Part shown: positions 14,701-63,793 of the stretch, piece after piece
Numbering within the stretch: the first letter of the stretch is position 1
Layout: each line of letters starts with the position of its first letter
From: Owenia fusiformis
Taxonomy: Eukaryota; Annelida; Polychaeta; Sabellida; Oweniidae
Assembly: GCA_903813345.2 (NCBI GenBank)
Contig: CAIIXF020000005.1
Coordinates: 22,633,375 to 22,697,374 of the forward strand
Length of the DNA stretch: 64,000 nucleotides
Direction of reading: 5' to 3'
Translations under genes and position numbers: made by a program
Notes under the pieces: model-generated
The model's input: only the letters and a program-made list of their open reading frames with translations
Told to the model about the DNA's origin: nothing
Databases searched by the model: none

Positions 14701-17700
14701 TCCTTACCTCGATCGCGTATGTGTGAGATTTTTGGCTTTTAACCAGGTCGCTTTTGAGTATATCGACTGCTTAGTCAACAAGTTAATACATTTTGTGCTC
14801 GTAGTGAGTCAGTATTGTTATTCGCTGAACTTCAACAGTGCAATAGTGAAGTCCATGTTCAAAGTTATATGATGGTTGAAGAAAGAATACAAATAATATT
14901 GTTTTAAAGTTTTAAATATTTGATATGTCATAGTACAGGGTACAAAGTTTCAAAAGTTGATCAATACAGGGTGCAAGGAATGTAAATTGTTCAATAAGGT
15001 TTTATACAAAAACCAATTCTGAGATGGTCAATAATATACTAGAATCATGTTTTGTACAATAGTGTGATAGTATGTGTTTGAACCACTCAATGTAATTGAT
15101 CTAGTCTTTGTTTTCAGACAAGTACAATAACAACATCATGCCGATCACTATTTCTAATGCGCTTGATATCCTTATCCAGTGGTACATGGAGCTGTATTTG
15201 AATATAAAAGATATTTGCCTAAAATTAATGTCAGATAGATCCTCAATGTATGAAATTGTTGTATTTATTTTATAAAAAGTAGCAATGGGATTTTGTTCAC
15301 AGGTGGCCATTAAATTTGCTGTCTGCAACATTTAAATGAAAGAAATGGATGCAGGTGTGAATCTGGGAACCAACATGGGGGGGCCCAAGGTCAGAGAAAA
15401 AACTTCCCCGCTTGTGAGGAAAAAGATTTAGGGCCCCTAAAACCCAAAAGTGGGCCCAAAATTAAAAGGCCTTATTTTATAGGGCCCCCAGCCCCCCAGA
15501 TCTGCTAGTGGGGTGTAAGCATAATATCTTTATGTTATCTTTATTTTAGTTACAACAGTTGAAACAGAGTGAAGTACAGCTACATTGTGTTGAAACAAGA
15601 CAAAAGATTCTTCACCAACAACTGCAAAAACTCAAAGACCAACTACATCATGCTCAAACTGAATTGGTAGGTTTGTGAAATTATTATAGCTATTATACGC
15701 GAGAGGGGTTTTGCGGGACTTTCATTATAAAATGAAACTCTGGCAGGGAACAGCCCCCTTGTCTGAAAGATCAATGAAGTCTGGGCTGGTAACGAACCCC
15801 ACACTCTCAGAAATACTCAGAAATTTTCTCGCATATAAGCCCTGGGTGTATAGCTGAAAGAAGGGGTAATTTTGTCTGTTATTTTACCTCTTATTTTTCG
15901 CACATGGGCGTATAAGTGTACTACTTTCGATTTTTTTGTAAAGGTGAGAAGAGAGTGGGCATCAGCCATCTTTCTCAAAGACTACCGTACCTACTGTTGT
16001 AGTCCTACCGCATGTTTTGTAAGAATTATAAAGGAAATGTCACCTACAACCTTGGACTTAATGTTGAAACAAAGTAACAACAGAACGATCCACCACTGCC
16101 ACTTACGGCAGAGCGTTGAACTTAATGTTAAAACAAAGTAACGACAGAACGATCTGCCAGTGACAAAATACTCTTGAATTTATTAAAAAAAATCAATAAA
16201 TAGTCATTTTTATAGGCCCATGGGCGTATAAGCGTACTACATTCGATTTTTGGCCCATGGGCCTAAATTTAGGGGGGCGTATATGCGAGAAAATCCGGTA
16301 TATGACAATTTTTGCGCAAACAATGAATTGCACTTAAATATTAGCTATTTGATGACGCGCATACTATATTCCATAATTTGATTGATTCATGGAAACAATG
16401 TTGTGTGAACCCCCTCCTTCATTTGGAACCCTCCTCCTTTCGTTATAAAATGAACCTCTGGCTGGGAAAATTGAAACCCCCTTGGTTAAAATAAAACTGT
16501 GCTAAACTTTTCAGTGAATGAAACACAATGAATTGCACTTAAATATTAGCTATTTGATGATGCGCATACTATATTCCATAATTTGATTGATTCATCGAAA
16601 CATTGTTGTGTGAACCCCCTCCTTAGTAATAATAAAACTGTGCTAAACTTTTCAGACTTGGATCTGCACATTTCATTAGAGAATTATACTGAATGGGAAT
16701 CTTTATATGGTACCTTCAGAGAAGAAAGGATATCCACATTCAAAGGTCCATGGGCAGTATGGCAAGTGATTTTAGAGTCATATCTTTCACCATGAGTACA
16801 ATTTATTATAGTAAAATATCAATCCAACTCTCTGAAAAATTATGGATTAGGGCCCCACCTTGGCACTTTAAAAAAAATGTTAGGCTTATTTTCTAAAAAG
16901 AGGATCTTGTTTTTCTCAATTTAAACATATCGAAAGTTTCTTCTACACTATATTAACAATTTCTGAAAAGGGGATGTGTATTGAAAATTTGAAATGTGTT
17001 AAAGTTTAAAACCACATATCCAATGTTATTATTTTCCATAGGGAAAACTCGTGCTATCCATTGTTTTCAGCATCATTTTGGTCATTGAAAATTGATATCT
17101 TCAAAACTAGACTTTCAATACCATTATATTTTTGAAGATGTTTTGACCCCTTGTTGAATAATCTTTTGATGCAATAAAAATCAGAAAAAGGGGATCCTCT
17201 TTTGAGAGAATAGGTTCAATATTTTGAAAAAAATGTTGACTTGGGGTCCCTATTCATAATTTCTTGAATTGTTCGATTGATATTTTTATCATCATGGGTA
17301 TTTCACTTGAAAGAAAACATATTGTTTTAATAAAAACCACTGTATTTATATCCAGAAAATACTCATGGTGAAAGATAAGACCATCTAAAACCACTTGCCA
17401 TACTGCACGCGGTCTTTTTGATTGTTAAAAGTTAGTTAAAGATTGTACCTTCTGTGCCCACCATACTCAAAGTTCATCTCTTTCGTCCAACATATCAGGT
17501 GCTGCCTGTCTGTATTTGGCATAATTTAGAAACCTCTGTTGATAAGATTGGCATATTTTCTAAAATTCAGCAAAACAAGGTCAGCGACGTTGACGCTGAA
17601 CTTGATGCTTTCTGCACATCTGCGGATATCTTCACTCAAGACTTTGACTTAATGGGAGAGGGTAGGAAGAGCCGAGAGAAGGAGGGAAAGCAGTTGTTGG

Positions 17701-20700
17701 AACAGCTACAAGGAGAGCAGACAGCACTAGAGACAGGTGAGAGAATGTGAAATGTTAAGTGAATAAGTCTCCTAAAGTATTCAGATTTTGAGACGCTCAT
17801 TGTTTCCAATTTTACATGAAGTTAAAGATGCCAGGCATTATTCATTTCATTAAATTATATTCTAATATCTTTAGAAGAGGTTTGTAACAAATTGTTACAA
17901 TTAGTAACAACTTGAATAACTTAACAGATGTTGACAAATTGTTCGTTCATGTATTGCAGAGCTCTCAAGTTTTTTGTCACACCAAGCTGCCATAGAAGAA
18001 CTAGAAAAGAACCGAAGTGAAGCCAAGCTCAGATGCAAGAACACACTAGCAGTAGTTAAAAGTAAGAATCACTTTTGTTTTATTCAAGAATGCCATTGTG
18101 GGCTATAGAAAGGCTAAAAAAAGAAAGACTAGCTTCTAAGGTAAATCGAGGGGATATAGAAAAGCCATCTGTCCGTTCTTTTGTTAGTTCATTCATTCAT
18201 TAGTTTGTTTCTCTGTCAGGGCGATAACTTAAATAACAGTTGACAGATTTGATTCAAATTCTAAAGGCTTATGCCTCTAGAAGGACCTCTACTGCAAGAA
18301 GGAATTCAATAAGGAATACAATTCCTCTGCTCAGGAAGAAATTTTCAACATGACTATTGAATTTCAAAATGCCCGCCATTTTTCGTAAAAAACATAATCT
18401 TTGATAACTTAGATGAACAAATTTGGTTCAAATTTTGTATGCTAAAGCCCAGAGATAAAGGAACTCTACTTGAGAAAATTTGGTTCTTGTGCCATGCTCA
18501 CCTACACGGGAATTTTAAAAATGCAAATACAAGTGTATCATTCGTATCACTCACCTACACGGGAATTTTAAAAATGCAAATACAAGTGTATCATTCGTAT
18601 CACCCACACGGGAAATTTGAAATGTAATTTACGAGTGCATTATCCGTAGTTGGCGTAGTCAACATACTATCATGTAGTTAGTTCAATAAAATACCCGTAG
18701 CAGACGTAGATATACATACGGTGGATCCTATGGTGTGTATGTATACCTATAGACTCATGTTTTGATGTAGCAAGCGTAGTAGGCGTAGTAAACATACTAT
18801 GGTGTGGTTATTTTCAATAAAATACCCGTAGCAGACGTACAGATGTACCTAGGGTGGACCCTACAGTGTGTATGTATACCTATAGACTTATGTTTTGATG
18901 TAGCAAGCGTAGTTGGCGTAGTAAACATACTAGCAGACGTAGACATACCTAGGGTGGGCCCTACAGTGTGCATGCATACCTATAGACCCCTGTTTTGGTG
19001 TAGCAAGCGTAGTTGGCGTAGTCAACATACTATCATGTGGTTATTTGCAATAAAATACCCGTAGCCGACGTAGCTATACCTAGGGTGGACCATGACAGTG
19101 TGTATGTATACCTAGAGACCAATGTTTTGGTGTAGCAAGCGTAGTTGGCGTAGTCAACATACTATCATGTGGTTATTTTCAATAAAATACCCGTAGCAGA
19201 CGTAGCTATACCTAGGGTGGACCATGACAGTGTGTATGTATACCTAGAGACCAATGTTTTGGTGTAGCAAGCGTAGTTGGCGTAGTCAACATACTATCAT
19301 GTGGTTATTTTCAATAAAATACCCGTAGCAGACGTAGCTATACCTAGGGTGGACCATGACAGTGTGTATGTATACCTAGAGACCAATGTTTTGGTGTAGC
19401 AAGCGTAGTTGGCGTAGTCAACACACTATTATGTGGTTATTTGCAATTAAATACCCGTAGCAGACGTAGCTATACCTAGGGTGGACCATGCCAGTGTGTA
19501 TGTATACCTATAGACCAATGTTTTGGTGTAGCAAGCGTAGTTGGCGTAGTCAACATACTATCATGTGGTTATTTTCAATAAAATACCCGTAGCAGACGTA
19601 GCTATACCTAGGGTGGACCATCTATTCAACCTGCTTGTAATATACCACATTATTCTTAAAATGTGTTCTCTTAAATTAACAAAGATCAACCCGTCTTTCG
19701 TCTACAATGTTTATCAGAAATGTATTCCAAATTGGTCAACGTGTAGCAATATGATTTGTGATTACGATGCCATCGTTGCAGCTGTGAAAAGATTTAAAAA
19801 GAAAGAGTTTGTGTTTTATAGCCAAACATGTAAAATAATGGCCCGTAGACTGTAACAGGTTTACTCTAATCCATCACAGTATGAACCATGTTTGAGGAAT
19901 ATTATTGTAAATGCTATTTTTGACGAAAGGTGAATGTAAAAGTTTGGAAACAATATTTGTGTTTGCCCGATTATAATAACATGTAAACTGTTTGATAATA
20001 GGTCCAAGATTAAAAATAAAGTACCAATTAAATTACCAAAGAAGAAGTAATTTCAATAATAATGTTCATTATTACATTATTATTGAAATTACTTCTTCTT
20101 TGGTAATGTAAGTAGCACTGATCGAAATCTTGTCTCGTTATAGGCTATATCATATAGATAGAATTTTCTTTATAATGTCAGGACGCACAAGCTAATTTTC
20201 GTCATCAGTGTTCAGAGTTTGCGTCTGTAACAGTGTTAATACTATGTTACATCTAGGAACACCAAAACCATTTGTAATTATTTACAGGTGTGGCTTGTCT
20301 CTCAATTGTCTGCAAACATGCATCACATAATCTATCCATATTGTGTGGTAACAAATTACAATGTATAAAAGCTAAGTTGCGGTAATGTTTGTTTACGATT
20401 GTAATATTATAGGCGTGTGTGTGCTTATGATTTGGAATTGGGCAACTAGGTTACATCTTCGTTCACAAAGGCTCCTGTAGGTCGATGAACGCAGTGAAGA
20501 CCGGAGCATGCGGAGATGACTAGGTTATGAGAAACTTACATTTAGATATGTCAATTCACTGGATTTCAGAAAAGCAAATGGTTAAGAAATGTAGTTTCAT
20601 ATATTATGCTCACAGTGGACGTTTCAGATCGTCCTAATATTGTATATCAAAACTATTAAGTAGATGTTTTATGTAGTAGGTGTTCTATGTAGCAAAAATA

Positions 20701-23700
20701 GTTAGTTTGAAAAATAAATTAATGTAGTAATCAGAACTCATTATATTTCTTTTGTAATTGTGTGAGCCCAGAATGTCGTTGTCTTCACAGATTAACAAAG
20801 TAGGTGTAATTAGGAGAAAAAATATGCTTGGTGTTATGAACAATAGAATTGATCAATGAAATATACATTTTTATACGAATAACTACATATTTTTGCGAGA
20901 AGCCAAATTTCTATTAACGCTATACGCATAAACATAAGTCGTGGTTTCACTTTTGATCTATCTCTCTAGTTGCTATTATTATGTAGAGAACTGATAAAGT
21001 TGCAGGAAAGGAGGTCCTTCATCCTATATATTAACATTTTCATCAATTTTTTAACCTCTTATCTTATAAATTACTGCTTGGACATATGGGGTGATACGAG
21101 GGGTGATTCAAAAGTAATGGACAAAATTTTATAGGCACGCTTACCTTTACCAGATTTGAATGAAACTTTGTACAAATAAAGATTAATCATTTATCTATTA
21201 GATTTTAAAATTTTATTATCTAAATGCAAATACATTTTGAGATAGAGCACTTCTCTTGGATCATGGTGCATACACCCGGAATCCATTTTTAAGGCTATTT
21301 TCATCATAATATCAAATGGATTTTCAATGAAAAGTTTGCTGGTGCAATATATTTTGCAGTGCAAGATGTATATGAAAAGCATGTTGCAGTAAGTTCAATA
21401 ATAATCCATATCATTCCTTATTATTCCTGATGATCATCCATTTGAATTATATTCAATCCTCAATGTATTCTCCTCCAAGTTCAATTACTTTCTTCTGTCG
21501 GCGCACCCATGCAGAGAACACATGCCCAAATCCATCAGCAGCCATGGTGTTCAGCTGTTTTTGTACAGCCATTTCCAGCTCAGCTAATGTCTGAAAGGAT
21601 TGTCCCTTTAATGCCATCTTAAGGGTGGGAAAAAGATAGAAATCACAAGGAGCAGTATCAGGGCTATATGGAGCATGTGGAAGTTGAGGCATGTCCATGA
21701 ATGCTGCAAGAGTATCCTGAACTAGACCTGTGTGCTGGGGCATTGTCCATGTGTAACAAACGATTGTCTCTTGTGTCTTTCCTTTTCTTTTGAAGTGCCT
21801 GTCTTAGAAATATCATTGTGATGTCATAGCACAATTGGTTGCTGAATTTAGAACTCAACAGCAAACACATGGGCATGTGAGTCTTGCTTGACAATTGCAT
21901 TACCATGCTTGTTAGACATATCATGTGTGGTAATTGAGTCATTAAAACGAAATCAAGCAAAAATGACAAAAACATTCAATTATCATTAAAAAACCAATTC
22001 CACCCATGCTTACCCTTGTTACCATGGTTACGCATAGCTGAAACAATTTCAAATGCATTTAAATGAGAATTCGACACAAAGTAGAGAATTGATTGATCTA
22101 TTCACTGTGAAAAAATTAGACTGATTGGGTGAAATTTAGTATGCCTATAAAATTTTGTCCATTACTTTTGAATCACCCCTCGTAGAATAATGTTATGTGT
22201 GAACTTTTGCATGATACACAATATTGTGTGCCATTCGAGTTGTAGACAGATTCACTTGCAACCAATTTAATTACGTTAAATTAAATCATGAAATTTCGTG
22301 ACAATTGCAAGTGTTTAGCATGGAAGTCTATGGCTATGTGGCCCAACCAAAACAATGACCCTAAGATGAATGCTTCTATGAAAGCATTATATTCAATTCT
22401 TAAAGCCTGAAAGCTAATTAAATCAATTAGCTGACTTTTGATAGATGTCTCTGCAATTACAATGGTAATATGGCAAAAATAAAGATGTCACTATATGATT
22501 AAAGTAACACATAGACGATACATCTATAATCTAAAACCCCAAAAAGTAATAGATATGACTATATGTTAGATAAAAAGAGATTTAAAAAACATTGGGGGCC
22601 ATAGATAAATAACTTTGCCACGACCGAGATTTAAACCACCAAATATGGGGTTGGAAGACCATAGCCTTAATCATAATCCACTAGATCAAGTTGAGATGAA
22701 CTGGTAATTTCTAAGCTATCTCACCTTCCGGGCTACGCCAACTACGCTTGCTACACCAAAACATGAGTCTATAGGTATACACACACAGTGCCATGGTTCA
22801 CCCTGGGTATAGCTACGTCTGCTACGGGTATTTTATTGAAACTAACCACATCATAGTATGAACTGTGTTGACTACGCCAACTACGCTTGCTACACCAAAA
22901 TATAAGTGTATAGGTATACACACACACTGCCATGGTTCACTGTGGGTATAGCTAGGTCTGCTACGGGTATTTTATTGGAAATAACCACATCATAGTATGT
23001 TGACTTCGCCAACTACGCTTGCTACACCAAAACATTGGTCTCTAGGTATACATACACACTGTCATGGTCCACCCTAGGTATAGCTACGTCTGCTACGGGT
23101 ATTTTATTGAAAATAACCACATGATAGTATGTTGACTACGCCAACTACGCTTGCTAAACCAAAACATTGGTCTCTAGGTATACATACACACTGTCATGGT
23201 CCACCCTAGGTATAGCTACGTCTGCTACGGGTATTTTATTGAAAATAACCACATGATAGTATGTTGACTACGCCAACTACGCTTGCTACACCAAAACATT
23301 GGTCTATAGGTATACATACACACTGGCATGGTCCACCCTAGGTATAGCTACGTCTGCTACGGGTATTTTATTGAAAATAACCACATGATAGTATGTTGAC
23401 TACGCCAACTACGCTTGCTACACCAAAACATTGGTCTCTAGGTATACATACACACTGTCATGGTCCACCCTAGGTATAGCTACGTCTGCTACGGGTATTT
23501 TATTGAAAATAACCACATGATAGTATGTTGACTACGCCAACTACGCTTGCTACACCAAAACATTGGTCTATAGGCATACATACACACTGTCATGGTCCAC
23601 CCTAGGTATAGCTACGTCTGCTACGGGTATTTTATTGAAAATAACCACATGATAGTATGTTGACTACGCCAACTACGCTTGCTACACCAAAACATTGGTC

Positions 23701-26700
23701 TATAGGTATACATACACACTGTCATGGTCCACCCTAGGTATAGCTACGTCTGCTACGGGTATTTTATTGCAAATAACCACATGATAGTATGTTGACTACG
23801 CCAACTACGCTTGCTACACCAAATCATTGGTCTATAGGTATACATACACACTTGCATGGTCCACCCTAGGTATAGCTACGTCTGCTACGGGTATTTGATT
23901 GAAAATGACCACTTCATAGTATGTTGACTAAGCCAACTACGCTTGCTACACCCAAACATTGGTCTATAGGTATACACACACACTGCCATGGTGTACCCTG
24001 GGTACAGCTACGTCTGCTACGAGTATTTGATTGAAAATGACCACTTCATAGTATGTACTGTGTTGACTACGCTAACTACGCCTGATACACCAAAACATGA
24101 GTCTATAGGTATACATATACTCTGTAGGGTCACCTTATGTACAACTACGTCTGCTACGGGTATTTAATTGAACAAAAACAGTATAGTATGTTTAATACGC
24201 CAACTACGCTTGCTACACCCAAACATGAGTCTATAGGTATACCACACACTGCCATGGTGTACCCTGGGTATAGCTACGTCTGCTACGAGTATCTTATTGA
24301 AAATGACCACTTCATAGTATGTACTGTGTTGACTACGCCAACTACGCCTGCTACACCAAAACATGAGTCTATAGGTATACACATACACTGTAGGGTCACC
24401 CTATGTACAACTTCGTCTGCTACGGGTATTTAATTGAACAAAAACAGTATAGTATGTTTCATACTACGCCAACTACGCTTGCTACACCTAAACATGAGTC
24501 TATAGGTATACACACACACTGCCATGGTGTACCCTGGGTACAGCTACGTCTGCTACGGATATTTTATTGAAAATGACCACTTCATAGTATGTACTGTGTT
24601 GACTTCGCCAACTACGCCTGCTACACCAAAACATGAGTCTACAGGTATACATACACACTGTAGGGTCACCCTTGTGTACTGCTACGTCTGCTACGGGCAT
24701 TTATTTGAAGAAAAACAGTATGGTATGTTTAGTACGCCAGCTACGCTTGCTACACGGAAACATGAGTCTGTAGGTATACTCACACACTGTCATGGTTCAC
24801 CCTAGGCCTACGCCAACTACGCTTGCTACACCAAAACATGATCAGGGTACATTACGCGTGATTTTACATGTTGGTTGCGCTTTCTACACATGTGCAAGCC
24901 TACCAAAGCCACATTTGTCTGCATGTTACAGAAATCATCACGAAATATGTTCACCTATCTATGGGATTGTAACATGGGCATGTTATATTGATACATGTCA
25001 AGTAGGTGATCACCGCACACGTGCCGAAAATTTGGCCACTATTGATCAAAATGGCCTCCATTTGTCATTAAAAATGTTATCTTTGGTAACCCAAATATCA
25101 GTTGATGGATTTAGCAATTGTTAAAACATCCCGCACCGACAGCATCCCTCTTCAAAAAAGCATCCCTCTGTAATGTACCTCTGGGTCTGTATGATCCCAG
25201 GTCTTTATTATGATAAATAAGCCTGATGTAAAGTGAATTAACTTCTTGAACTTCCCACCCCACGGACTTCAGTCAACATTTCTTCCGAAACTTACTTCCT
25301 AATACAATAGATATATACCAGGATTGGTAACAGGCAGCCACTGCTTATAGATTAACTTATTGTCTTAGAAATCTAACATTGTCTAGTCATATTTATTGAG
25401 GCCAGGTTTTTATTATCTATCTTGCTCACATGAAGGGTATCAGTGCGGCAAGATACATTTCATTAAAATATAATTTATTACAACATTAAAATACTTGTAC
25501 ATTAAATTCATTAAAATAGAAGTTAATAATACAACAACAATATACAGTTATACAATATTATACAGAATAGACTTGTCTTCATGGTAATTACGGAAAATGA
25601 AAGAATTTAGTAAAATCTTTATTTTAATAATTCTTTATTGATATCAAGTAAAAATGCTTTTGATAGATTATCAAAAATAGAGCCTTTATCGTGTCCCCAA
25701 TGAACATCTACATCATCCAACGTGTTTTCTTAAAATTGAAAGTTGTAAAACACTGTTAACAATGACATCCGGGCATTCTTATAAACTTCAAAAAACATAC
25801 TCCGTTGTGTTGTTGTGGATGGAGTAAATAAGCCGTGTTCAAGAGTATCTTTTTCTGAGAGAAAAGTATTACAAAACCAATCTGACAATCCCATCCTTTC
25901 AAGATGAGAATTCAAACCCAAACATTTTGGCTCAAGCTCTAAATTTGATTTGCTGAATGTAAAAGTCCATTCTTACCCATTGTTCATTTGAAATATTAAA
26001 ATAAGATGTGTACTATAAGTTATTCAATGATTCGAGTGAAATACAGAATACAATATGTATATTCTTCCCGAGAAGGTCTGTAATTCATGATGCGCTAGCA
26101 GAGGTGAAACAGAAATATGCTATGAGAGTAGCAGAATGACAGTATGGTAAAATAACCATTTTGGAATATCAAATAAGCATGTACTTTTATGTGATAACAG
26201 ACTTATGCTCTCTTTTGAGAGAATCTGAGGAGCAGAAGTGTGATTCTGATTATTGGTTTACTAGTTCAGTAAAATCAATCAAAGCAGATTGAGTACTGTT
26301 ATCTATGGATTTTGCAAAACACTGGCACATGTCTGCCAAAATCTAAGAACTCTCTCTTTCTAAAGGTTTTTATTTGATAATATTTCGTAATTTATTATTT
26401 GAGTTCTATGCGTAACACTTAATTTCCCGTCCCTGAACAATATTAAAGAATACACATTTTTAAGCTTTCCAATGGTGTCGTGCAAGTGGGTAAATGTTTC
26501 AAATCATGACAAAAATCGTATGCCATGTTGTAAGTCTACAAAAACGTTCCGTCATCTTTTTAGATCCATTACATTTAATTCTTAATTCGGAACCTTCTGC
26601 AAGGGAGATTAAAGAAGATAAGATATGGTGTGATGTAGTGCGAAATATGAAAATTTTGCCAAATTAATGAATCATGCATTTTTTATGCATCAAACTTCTA

Positions 26701-29700
26701 TATTAAACCACCAGTGTATGAATCTGTATATTCTGCATGTCATTACAAAGTCCTTGTTGTATTAACCATGGGCTTTCAACTAGAGTTGAAAGCCCATGTA
26801 TTAACTGATGATCTAGTTACTTCATGTAATGACATGCCAAAACTGTCTCACCAAAGCACCTCGTTGCAAGTCACTGAACATGGATGTTATTTTATAAATT
26901 TCACAACTTTTTATTGTAGATATAATGCATATAAAGATTTATATATCATTTCAAAGCCCTGTTTGTTGGCTATCTGATTTTCTAACTTTTTGGGGAGTAT
27001 ATAGTATATAGGACAAAGTACATGTTTGCCATTTCTGTCTGCGTGAAACTTGGTGAAACTTTGTCAAATTGTTCAGTTTTAACGGGAAATATGACTGATA
27101 TAATGTCTATACACCATTTTTAATCTCTGTTTGTCTCATATCTGATATTCTTACTACTTTATGTAATGATATAACAAAACTGACACTGAATATGGATCGT
27201 TATGGAGTAAAATTCACAACCTTTCGTATTGTTCAGTTTTTATTGTAAAGGTGATACATATATTTCAGTTTCACACCCAGGTAGTAGACCCCATGGGTCA
27301 AAGGAGCTCTGTTCAAAGAGAATTATTCAAGATGGCAGCTGTTTTCAAAATGGCCACCATTTTTCGTAAAAAACATAATCTTTGATAACTCAAATACCAG
27401 TGGATGAATTTGGTTAAAATATTATATGTTGTTGATATGTTGTTGATACATTGTACTTACAATGTAAATTAAGACAAAAGAGCTCTGTTTAGTAAGAAAT
27501 TTTCAAGGTGACTGCTATTTATCATCACACTACTCTATGGAGTTGCTGTCTTCTAGTTTAATACAATGTGGTGGCATAATCAGGCATGAAGAGGGGAAGC
27601 AAATAATCCACCAGAAATCTTGAGAATAAATCCACTCACTCAGACTTTTTTTCCAAATGAATCTGTAAAACTGAATTCTTATTTAATTTCTTTTGATAGT
27701 AGTATTTTACTCCCTATATTTGGCTTGCTTTTTAGATTTGCAAAAGGACATTTTTCATTCCTAACTTTGTCCTGGGGAGTGCATTCTTTTGATCATCGTT
27801 TTTTTTATAATACAGTATTTTTGCTTCAGACTGTGATGAACAAATACAGAAAGAGCTTCAAAAGTTTGCTACCCTGGAGGAAGAAAAAGAAAGAGTAAGC
27901 CAAATACCCAAGACAGACCCAGAATTTCTCAAGTGAGCAACATTGTTGTACCATTTATCACTTTCATTCACAGTAAGCAAATGTTGCAGGTTAACAAATG
28001 CTAAATGTTGTCAAATGTTTAAGGTCAATAAATGCTACATGCTGTCAAATGTTTGGGTTATCAAATGGTACATCTTGTCAAATGTTGCAGGTTAACAAAT
28101 GCTAAATGTTGTCAAATGTTTGAGGTCAATAAATGCTACATGCTGTCAAATGTTTGAGGTCAATAAATGCTACATGCTGTCAAATGTTTGGGTTATCAAA
28201 TGCTACATGTTGTCAAATGTTTGGGTTATCAAATGGTACATGTTGTCAAATGTAGTAGGTTAGCAATTGCTAAATGTTGTCAAATGTTTGAGGTCAATAA
28301 ATGCTACATGCTGTCAAATGTTTGGGTTATCAAATGCTACATGTTGTCAAATGTAGTAGGTTAGCAATTGCTAAATGTTGTCAAATGTTTGAGGTCAATA
28401 AATGCTACATGCTGTCAAATGTTTGGGTTATCAAATGCTACATGTTGTCAAATGTTTGGGTTATCAAATGGTACATGTTGTCAAATGTTGTAGGTTATCA
28501 AATGCTACATGTTTGCAAATATTTGGGTTATCAAATGCTACATGTTTTCAAATGTTGCAGGTTATCAAATGCTACATGTTGTCAAATGTTGTAGGTTATG
28601 AAATGCTACATGTTGTCAAATGTTGTAGGATATCAAATGGTACATTTTGTCAAATGTAGGTTATTAAATGCAACATGTAGTCAAATGTTGTAGGTTATCA
28701 AATGCTACATGTTTGCAAATATTTGGGTTATGAAAAATGCTACATGTTTTCAAATGTTGCAGGTTATCAAATGCTACATGTTTGCAAATATTTGGGTTAT
28801 CAAATGCTACATGTTTTCAAATGTAGGTTATCAAATGCTACATATGTTGTCAATTGTTAGAGGTCAACAAATGCTATATGTTGTCAAATGTTTGGGTTAT
28901 CAAATGCTACATGTGGTCAAGTGTAGGTTATCAAATGCTACATGTGGTCAAATAATGTAAGTAAACAAATGCTACACCTTGTCAAATGTTGCAGGTTAAC
29001 AAATGCTACATGTTGTCAAATGTTGCAGGTTATCAAATGTTACATGTTGTCAAATAATACATGTTATTTCATGCAACATGTTGTCAAATGTTGCAGGTTA
29101 TCTGTTGAGCTTGAGATGCTGAAAGATGACAGCTTGGAAGGTTTGTGCCAGGCCCTTAAACAGCAGCTACAGCAGTTAAAGCAACAGCAGTGGCAACAGC
29201 AGCTGCATCAACAGCATAAACAGAGAGTTCTTACACAGGGAAACAAGGTATTTCCAAGCTTTTTGATGCGAAAGGATTTGTAGATAGAAAACATAACTCT
29301 TAATGTCAGGTGATGAAGTTAAGTTACTGACATTTTTTCACACATTGAACACAATATTATTTCAATCTCGTTGTGAAATACCCTTGATGTTCAATAGACA
29401 TATTCTTTTAAATAAGCAAAATCAAACTATTAGAAAGGGTATAATGAGTAATTGACAAAGCTTATCTGAAAATATCTCCATTTGTTGCAGGGTAAGATTC
29501 ACAACTTACAACTCAACATCTTTTATTTGGTTGATTGATGAAAAAATTTTACAGAATAAACAAGACAGGAACAAATTAAGGTGTAAATTAACTCTGATTG
29601 AGAAATCACCCACCACCCCAGAGAACATACCCAATTTTTCATTAAGAATTGAGCTTTTTACAGACAGCGAAAAATTGGAATTTACAATTGTTCACTTCTA

Positions 29701-54163: not shown

Positions 54164-63793
<9,630 letters not shown>

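Follow-up and report, generated by a model that had tools for sequence, protein, structure and literature searches.

A 64,000-bp stretch of the Owenia fusiformis genome (contig C5, positions 22633375-22697374 of the 498-Mb assembly; hereafter the window) contained two oppositely oriented arrays of a 132-bp unit, and these arrays are very probably the arms of a dispersed, cut-and-paste transposon of the foldback type. The structure is that of a foldback element, and the mobile foldback architecture that an initial annotation of the window had proposed was borne out by sharp common ends, exact 8-bp target duplications in 13 of 14 copies, empty sites, and inverted arrays in 14 of 14 copies. This animal foldback family is apparently recent and comprises at least 14 copies complete at both ends, with exact footprints and empty sites; it shows one origin of satellite-looking inverted arrays in introns.

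Copies, target duplications and empty sites

Tandem Repeats Finder detected a 132/133-bp unit at 18645-19621 and 22733-24806, and a unit profile confirmed that the two arrays lie on opposite strands; the profile counts in Table 1 replace the about 7 and about 16 copies first claimed. The span first given, 18640-24838, was too narrow: the element occupied 18482-25025, starting with GGTTCTTGTGCC and ending with CACGTGCC, and GAAAATTT was present on both flanks. The left terminal stretch 18550-18640 was 97.8-100% identical in all but one of the 12 other short copies fetched; the exception, L001, matched it over 76 of 91 bp. Among the same 12 copies the right terminal segment (24839-25025) was 93-98% identical, and 24800-25030 showed 94-99% identity in the 13 other complete copies. 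The terminal inverted repeat (TIR) was short and imperfect with GG..CC ends; by eye, 18 of the first 24 positions agreed, a count that rises to 20 with the older right end at C11:16558183. An Rfam scan of 18400-25100 gave no match.

A genome search with 401 bp of the right arm returned 242 matches. Hand grouping of the matches listed gave at least 16 loci; 14 appeared in the list as minus-then-plus pairs, and the other two (L011 and L012) had both arms once their sequence was fetched. The ends were searched with a left-end pattern of 28 bp (up to 3 mismatches) and a right-end pattern of 27 bp, which matched the genome 24 and 16 times, respectively; the reversed patterns used as controls had 0 matches for both. 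Inspection covered 17 of the 24 left-end and 14 of the 16 right-end matches, the two remaining right-end ones being on C11.

The 14 two-ended copies comprised the window copy, 12 further fetched loci and a 22.9-kb copy on C12. In every one the left array lay on the minus strand and its right counterpart on the plus strand, and the search for the unit and for other inverted pairs, suggested with the initial annotation, found the unit dispersed and, in these 14, inverted. Near-full-length units numbered 6-23 per left arm and 0-17 per right arm, the zero being L012, whose right arm keeps three partial units only. Apart from the C12 copy, the copies were 1.7-7.5 kb long. They sit at dispersed sites on eight large contigs with the same ends in the same orientation, and the only copy without the exact 8-bp duplication was L008. 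No free-standing array of the 132-bp unit was seen among the matches listed. One of the 16 loci, C6:32.67 Mb (C6:32667557-32690873), consisted of old, rearranged arrays with undefined ends.

Two further loci carried a longer left end. In L020 (C7:28399400-28402400) the left end equalled that of the window over 91 bp with approximately 190 extra bp, and an array of a different, 31-bp unit lay further on; L019 also carried this longer left end and continued into the 132-bp unit.

Empty sites were searched with the 14 joined flank pairs; 40 of 1,410 candidate matches were scored, so that misses are uninformative. Empty sites were found for at least three copies. For L009, 120 of 120 bp matched at 100% at C12:33583754, and a 97% match lay at C12:33677852. 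For L007, 89 bp matched at 100% across the junction at C9:30493050, and junction-spanning matches had 97-100% identity. For L012, full-length matches of 88-92% were found at dispersed sites that look tRNA-like by eye; ARAGORN found no tRNA gene in the joined L012 site or in the locus.

Table 1. Features of the foldback element in the window, numbered from the first base of the window
Feature	Position	Strand	Remark
Left target-site duplication GAAAATTT	18474..18481		matches 25026-25033 exactly
Whole foldback element, 6,544 bp	18482..25025	+	termini common to 13 other copies
Left terminal segment GGTTCTTGTGCCATGCTCACCTACACGGG...	18482..18644	+	53-bp stretch doubled here (18497-18607)
Left arm of the 132-bp repeat, 8 units, 6 of them near full length	18645..19621	-	Tandem Repeats Finder, unit profile
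Open frame, 96 aa	19565..19855	+	array sequence up to 19621, then 44 bp equal to the C8 candidate gene
Core	19622..22732	+	between both arrays
Inverted repeat (hairpin)	20035..20105		by eye; inverted self-match 87% over 100 bp
Internal sequence common to the 22.9-kb copy	20587..21096	+	L015:4685-5195, 98.8%
Nested insertion, mariner-like by label, TA duplication	21097..22182		empty site L015 5194-5195
Internal sequence common to the 22.9-kb copy, 98.1%	22183..22732	+	right part also in L003, L002 (98%)
Right arm, 17 units, 15 of them near full length	22733..24838	+	outer units are the older series
Right terminal segment, end ...CAAGTAGGTGATCACCGCACACGTGCC	24839..25025	+	conserved in other copies
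Right target-site duplication GAAAATTT	25026..25033		exact pair of the left one

Arms and a conserved 13-bp motif

Aligned over 1,014 columns, the left arm of the window copy pairs with the right arm at 90.5% identity. DNA or RNA could therefore fold into a hairpin of about 1 kb, including the stem of nearly 1 kb that had been predicted for the pre-mRNA, where the paired arms may form it within the host intron.

Comparison of 307 near-full-length units from 14 elements placed the nearest neighbour of 83% of the units in the corresponding arm of a different element. For 8% it lay in the unit's own array, for 7% in the opposite arm of a different element, and for 1% in the other arm of its own element. 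Since units resemble the same arm elsewhere, the arms have spread with the transposon and did not grow locally. Left-arm units of equal rank (ranks 0-8) were 1-5% different between elements; right-arm units of equal rank (ranks 2-8) were 4-13% different, which indicates that ranks have slipped in the right arm. Counted from the outer end, right-arm units of rank 8-11 were 6.5-10% from left-arm units of other elements and those of rank 1-7 were 13.5-20% from them; the outer right copies form an older series, as first suggested. The left-arm units nearest to the right arm were the middle ranks 3-8 (9-10%), with left ranks 9-11 at 13-15%; the earlier statement that the inner copies are the most alike thus held for the right arm (ranks 8-11) and failed for the left.

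Homogenisation between the arms of one element was also considered and rejected: the inner three units of left and right differed by 0.124 in the same element and by 0.124 between elements. Left-right unit distances were no smaller inside one element than between elements, and arm-to-arm conversion was not visible.

Conservation along the unit was compared between the young family (314 units) and the old locus C6:32.67 Mb (49 units from four fetched pieces). Among 13-bp stretches, one and the same was the most conserved in both sets, CTACGTCTGCTAC, i.e., CTACG(T/C)(C/T)TGCTAC, with a conservation of 0.967 in old and 0.991 in young units (medians 0.914 and 0.930); in young units the stretch one base on tied with it. 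The motif had been spotted by eye, as a sub-repeat, prior to this test, and a near copy, CTACGCTTGCTAC, is present elsewhere in the unit. The long TIRs of Galileo contain repeated transposase-binding sites (PMC3688188). From this analogy and the conservation of the motif, the arrays are most likely putative rows of transposase-binding sites. The family makes it testable whether repeated arms are arrays of such sites, and how satellite-like repeats arise inside transposons.

Candidate enzyme gene and competing explanations

The interior of the 22.9-kb C12 copy recurred in a copy on C6 (94-99%) and on C8 (1,538 bp at 98.8%). On C8 this foldback interior runs into three frames on the plus strand of the element, of 288, 256 and 150 amino acids (aa). 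The 288-aa frame is presumably DDE-like, as judged from the motifs ILDNCC, FHAVQR and GTNRNEALH. The 256-aa frame is OTU-like (Pfam Peptidase_C65, E 0.0029) and the 150-aa frame is Cys-rich and CXC-like (Pfam MSL2-CXC, E 0.00019), both below the curated cut-off. A stretch of the third frame is identical to bases 1-44 of the window core, and beyond it the frame enters another repeat. Foldback sequence from two copies thus flanks the C8 gene, because the 1,538 bp on its left match the C12 copy and the 44 of 44 bp on its right match the window copy.

Searches with the three frames gave nothing in NCBIfam and nothing useful in PHROGs. The DDE-like frame had no relatives in viral contigs or bacterial and archaeal genomes (close-relative searches) or in phages, nothing useful in PDB (best E 0.065, Selenoprotein W), and only remote partial relatives (32-48%) in its own genome. 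The OTU-like frame had only weak matches to an unrelated reductase. No paper that names a transposase together with an OTU domain and a CXC domain was found in the literature search, and the gene is a lead to a possible transposase outside the recognition of the searched libraries. Near it on C8, the frame L029:8560-9333 matched the Hermes (hAT) DNA-binding domain at E 0.093, below the cut-off, and was taken as a separate nested element.

The foldback family appears to be new: no element with this 132-bp unit was found in the literature consulted, Repbase and other animal genomes not being compared, and we know of no named element that has it. The one paper retrieved on foldback transposons and annelids was, judged by its title, about Drosophila. 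Long inverted arms of tandem repeats are likewise found in Drosophila FB and in Tetris. Tetris has units of approximately 220 bp and 8-10 bp duplications, and none of its copies is coding (PMC4079207), whereas the unit here is 132 bp and the outer parts of the two arms differ in unit type. For Tetris, compared here by its published description, free satellite arrays are reported, whereas none was seen here among the matches listed. Galileo makes target duplications of 7 bp, whereas they were 8 bp here in 13 of 14 copies. No THAP or P-type transposase was found in the three C8 frames (Pfam, E up to 1). Membership in Galileo itself was not borne out by the duplication length; the likeness to Galileo lies in its long, internally repetitive TIRs (PMC3688188).

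The arrays look satellite-like, as they would in ordinary satellite DNA or after one satellite block had been locally inverted; these explanations are in practice ruled out by the same ends and orientation on eight large contigs, the target duplications in 13 of 14 copies, the empty sites, and the kinship of units in the same arm across loci. The length of the target duplication fits either Mutator-like elements (MULEs) or hAT. hAT elements make 8-bp duplications and have CAGGG-like ends. A family resembling miniature inverted-repeat transposable elements and moved by a hAT transposase would thus explain the duplications, and it is very unlikely given that the GG...CC ends are not hAT-like and speak against hAT and that the Pfam search of the three C8 frames turned up no domain of the hAT type. 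A Mutator-like foldback of the Phantom or Rehavkus type, moved by a MULE transposase that was missed or not recognised, is possible, with the balance somewhat against it. The 8-bp duplication is within the MULE range of 8-11 bp (PMC6446971), and most foldback elements are said to seem members of Mutator (PMC4079207). Tm1 and Phantom are MULE foldbacks that include non-autonomous members and show repeated motifs; their duplications are 8-10 bp long, most commonly 9 bp (PMC3169594), whereas they were exactly 8 bp in 13 of 14 copies here. Rehavkus, from insects and annelids, bears a mini-satellite before its 3' TIR, but it has a 9-bp duplication and a PHD finger, and the satellites here are at both ends (PMC6446971). 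The MULE and FLYWCH domains of Tm1 and Phantom, and likewise SWIM and PHD domains, were not found in the three C8 frames with Pfam at E up to 1, with no genome-wide MULE search.

A Polinton/Maverick with satellite terminal repeats was first suspected as the owner of the arms from the 22.9-kb C12 copy (C12:32423100-32446300, L013-L014). This copy contained frames with C2H2 fingers (E 1.7e-13), a polymerase-like frame (PHROG DNA polymerase, E 1.6e-4) whose motifs we also take to be family-B-like and which had no match in PDB, a Pox_A32-like ATPase frame (E 7.5e-4, below the cut-off), and an rve integrase with a chromodomain (E 2.2e-10 and 5.8e-7). These polymerase, ATPase and integrase genes were inside a separate element, seated at the inner end of the foldback arm, which ends in AG...CT, is flanked by a duplication of 6 bp (AACATA) and has its own TIR of approximately 300 bp (L013:1806-2107 against L014:6332-6612, 91%). 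The combination of a 6-bp duplication with own ends around polymerase and integrase belongs to this nested element only, not to the foldback. The core common to the short copies begins just outside it, at L014:6613. Two other Polinton-like loci were seen as pieces with unlocated ends (C9, integrase 97% identical; C2, 86%), and no 132-bp unit was present in the fetched pieces of either. The nested TIR and 6-bp duplication ruled the Polinton out as arm owner, and this origin of the arms is highly improbable.

For the foldback transposon, the copies, apparently internal-deletion derivatives, would have moved in trans; the likeliest supplier of the enzyme, at about even odds, is the element whose C8 remnant encodes the DDE-like, OTU-like and Cys-rich frames. 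The arrays around the 13-bp motif would bind the transposase and thereby bring both termini into contact, as has been suggested for Galileo; each insertion duplicates 8 bp of target sequence. The fuller proposal, in which an undescribed transposase with a DDE-like core, an OTU-like protease and a CXC tail would read arm-specific units as a recognition code, with the left arm held in register and the motif under selection, is tentative and rather doubtful.

Several observations weigh against the account of a foldback transposon served by the C8 enzyme. L008 lacks the target duplication; its empty relatives (89-91%) have 2-8, mostly 6-7, bases more than its joined flanks, which fits an apparent loss of the left target copy. 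Register was kept clearly only in the left arm, the motif test rests on related arrays, and CTACGCTTGCTAC was barely above background in old units (0.913 vs 0.897). The C8 frames are out of register and apparently broken by at least two frame changes, introns still being possible; they match no transposase model in Pfam, NCBIfam or PHROGs, and the gene has one close copy in the genome. No arms or ends were found within about 10 kb on either side of it, and 400 bp of unexplained sequence (L015:4286-4686), present only in the C12 and C6 copies, lie where the C8 gene would be. The last two observations are what would be seen if the C8 gene came from an unrelated transposon caught as fragments, the true transposase being missing from the assembly or not recognised. 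Such an origin is quite possible, if short of probable; it is at odds with the foldback interior found next to the gene on either side, each side from a different copy. The chances that the C8 gene is the source of the enzyme of the family are about evenly balanced.

Core, nested insertions and host setting

The open frame without assignment in the initial annotation was present, and 44 bp of it, 19622-19665, match the 3' part of the C8 candidate gene exactly; these 44 bp suggest that the 96-aa frame is array sequence fused to the tail of that gene. The hairpin described as perfect was present as an inverted repeat, with the lower self-match given in Table 1. From 19666 to 20586 there was no other match in the genome, except for a short dispersed repeat near 20454-20519. 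Approximately 1.06 kb of the core was 98-99% identical to subterminal interior sequence of the 22.9-kb copy. The insertion at 21097-22182, which we take to be mariner-like in line with its earlier label, is flanked by TA, and the TA empty site is present in the C12 copy. The window copy is thus probably an internal-deletion derivative with a later mariner-like insertion.

Eight copies (L002, L003, L005, L007-L011) shared 0.5-0.85 kb at approximately 96-98% with L014:6613-7452. Beside the right arm, L002 and L003 shared approximately 0.5 kb of internal sequence and L001 approximately 0.2 kb, and L004, L006 and L012 had nearly no core. All short copies look like deletion derivatives of longer elements.

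The foldback copy on C6 (approximately 22368107-22428064; L025, L028 and L035) was split by approximately 60 kb inserted at one point, with TTTAAA at both junctions by eye, a possible 6-bp duplication. Four stretches of this insertion had few long frames, and one stretch held pieces that are presumably like long interspersed nuclear elements.

Coiled-coil-like frames flank the foldback element on the plus strand (17436-17747, 17935-18105 and 27811-27933), which makes the proposed position in an intron of a CCDC172-like gene plausible; the name CCDC172 is our assumption. Farther along, 63602-63793 is a DEAD-box helicase exon, presumably DDX41-like.

The Polinton integrase had 124 other genome matches, whole and partial. 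Eleven of the integrase copies at 86% elsewhere had identical scores, suggesting a recent burst. Near the Polinton-like locus on C2, a 162-bp tandem repeat of 5.4 copies (L021:634-1506) may go with a mobile element.

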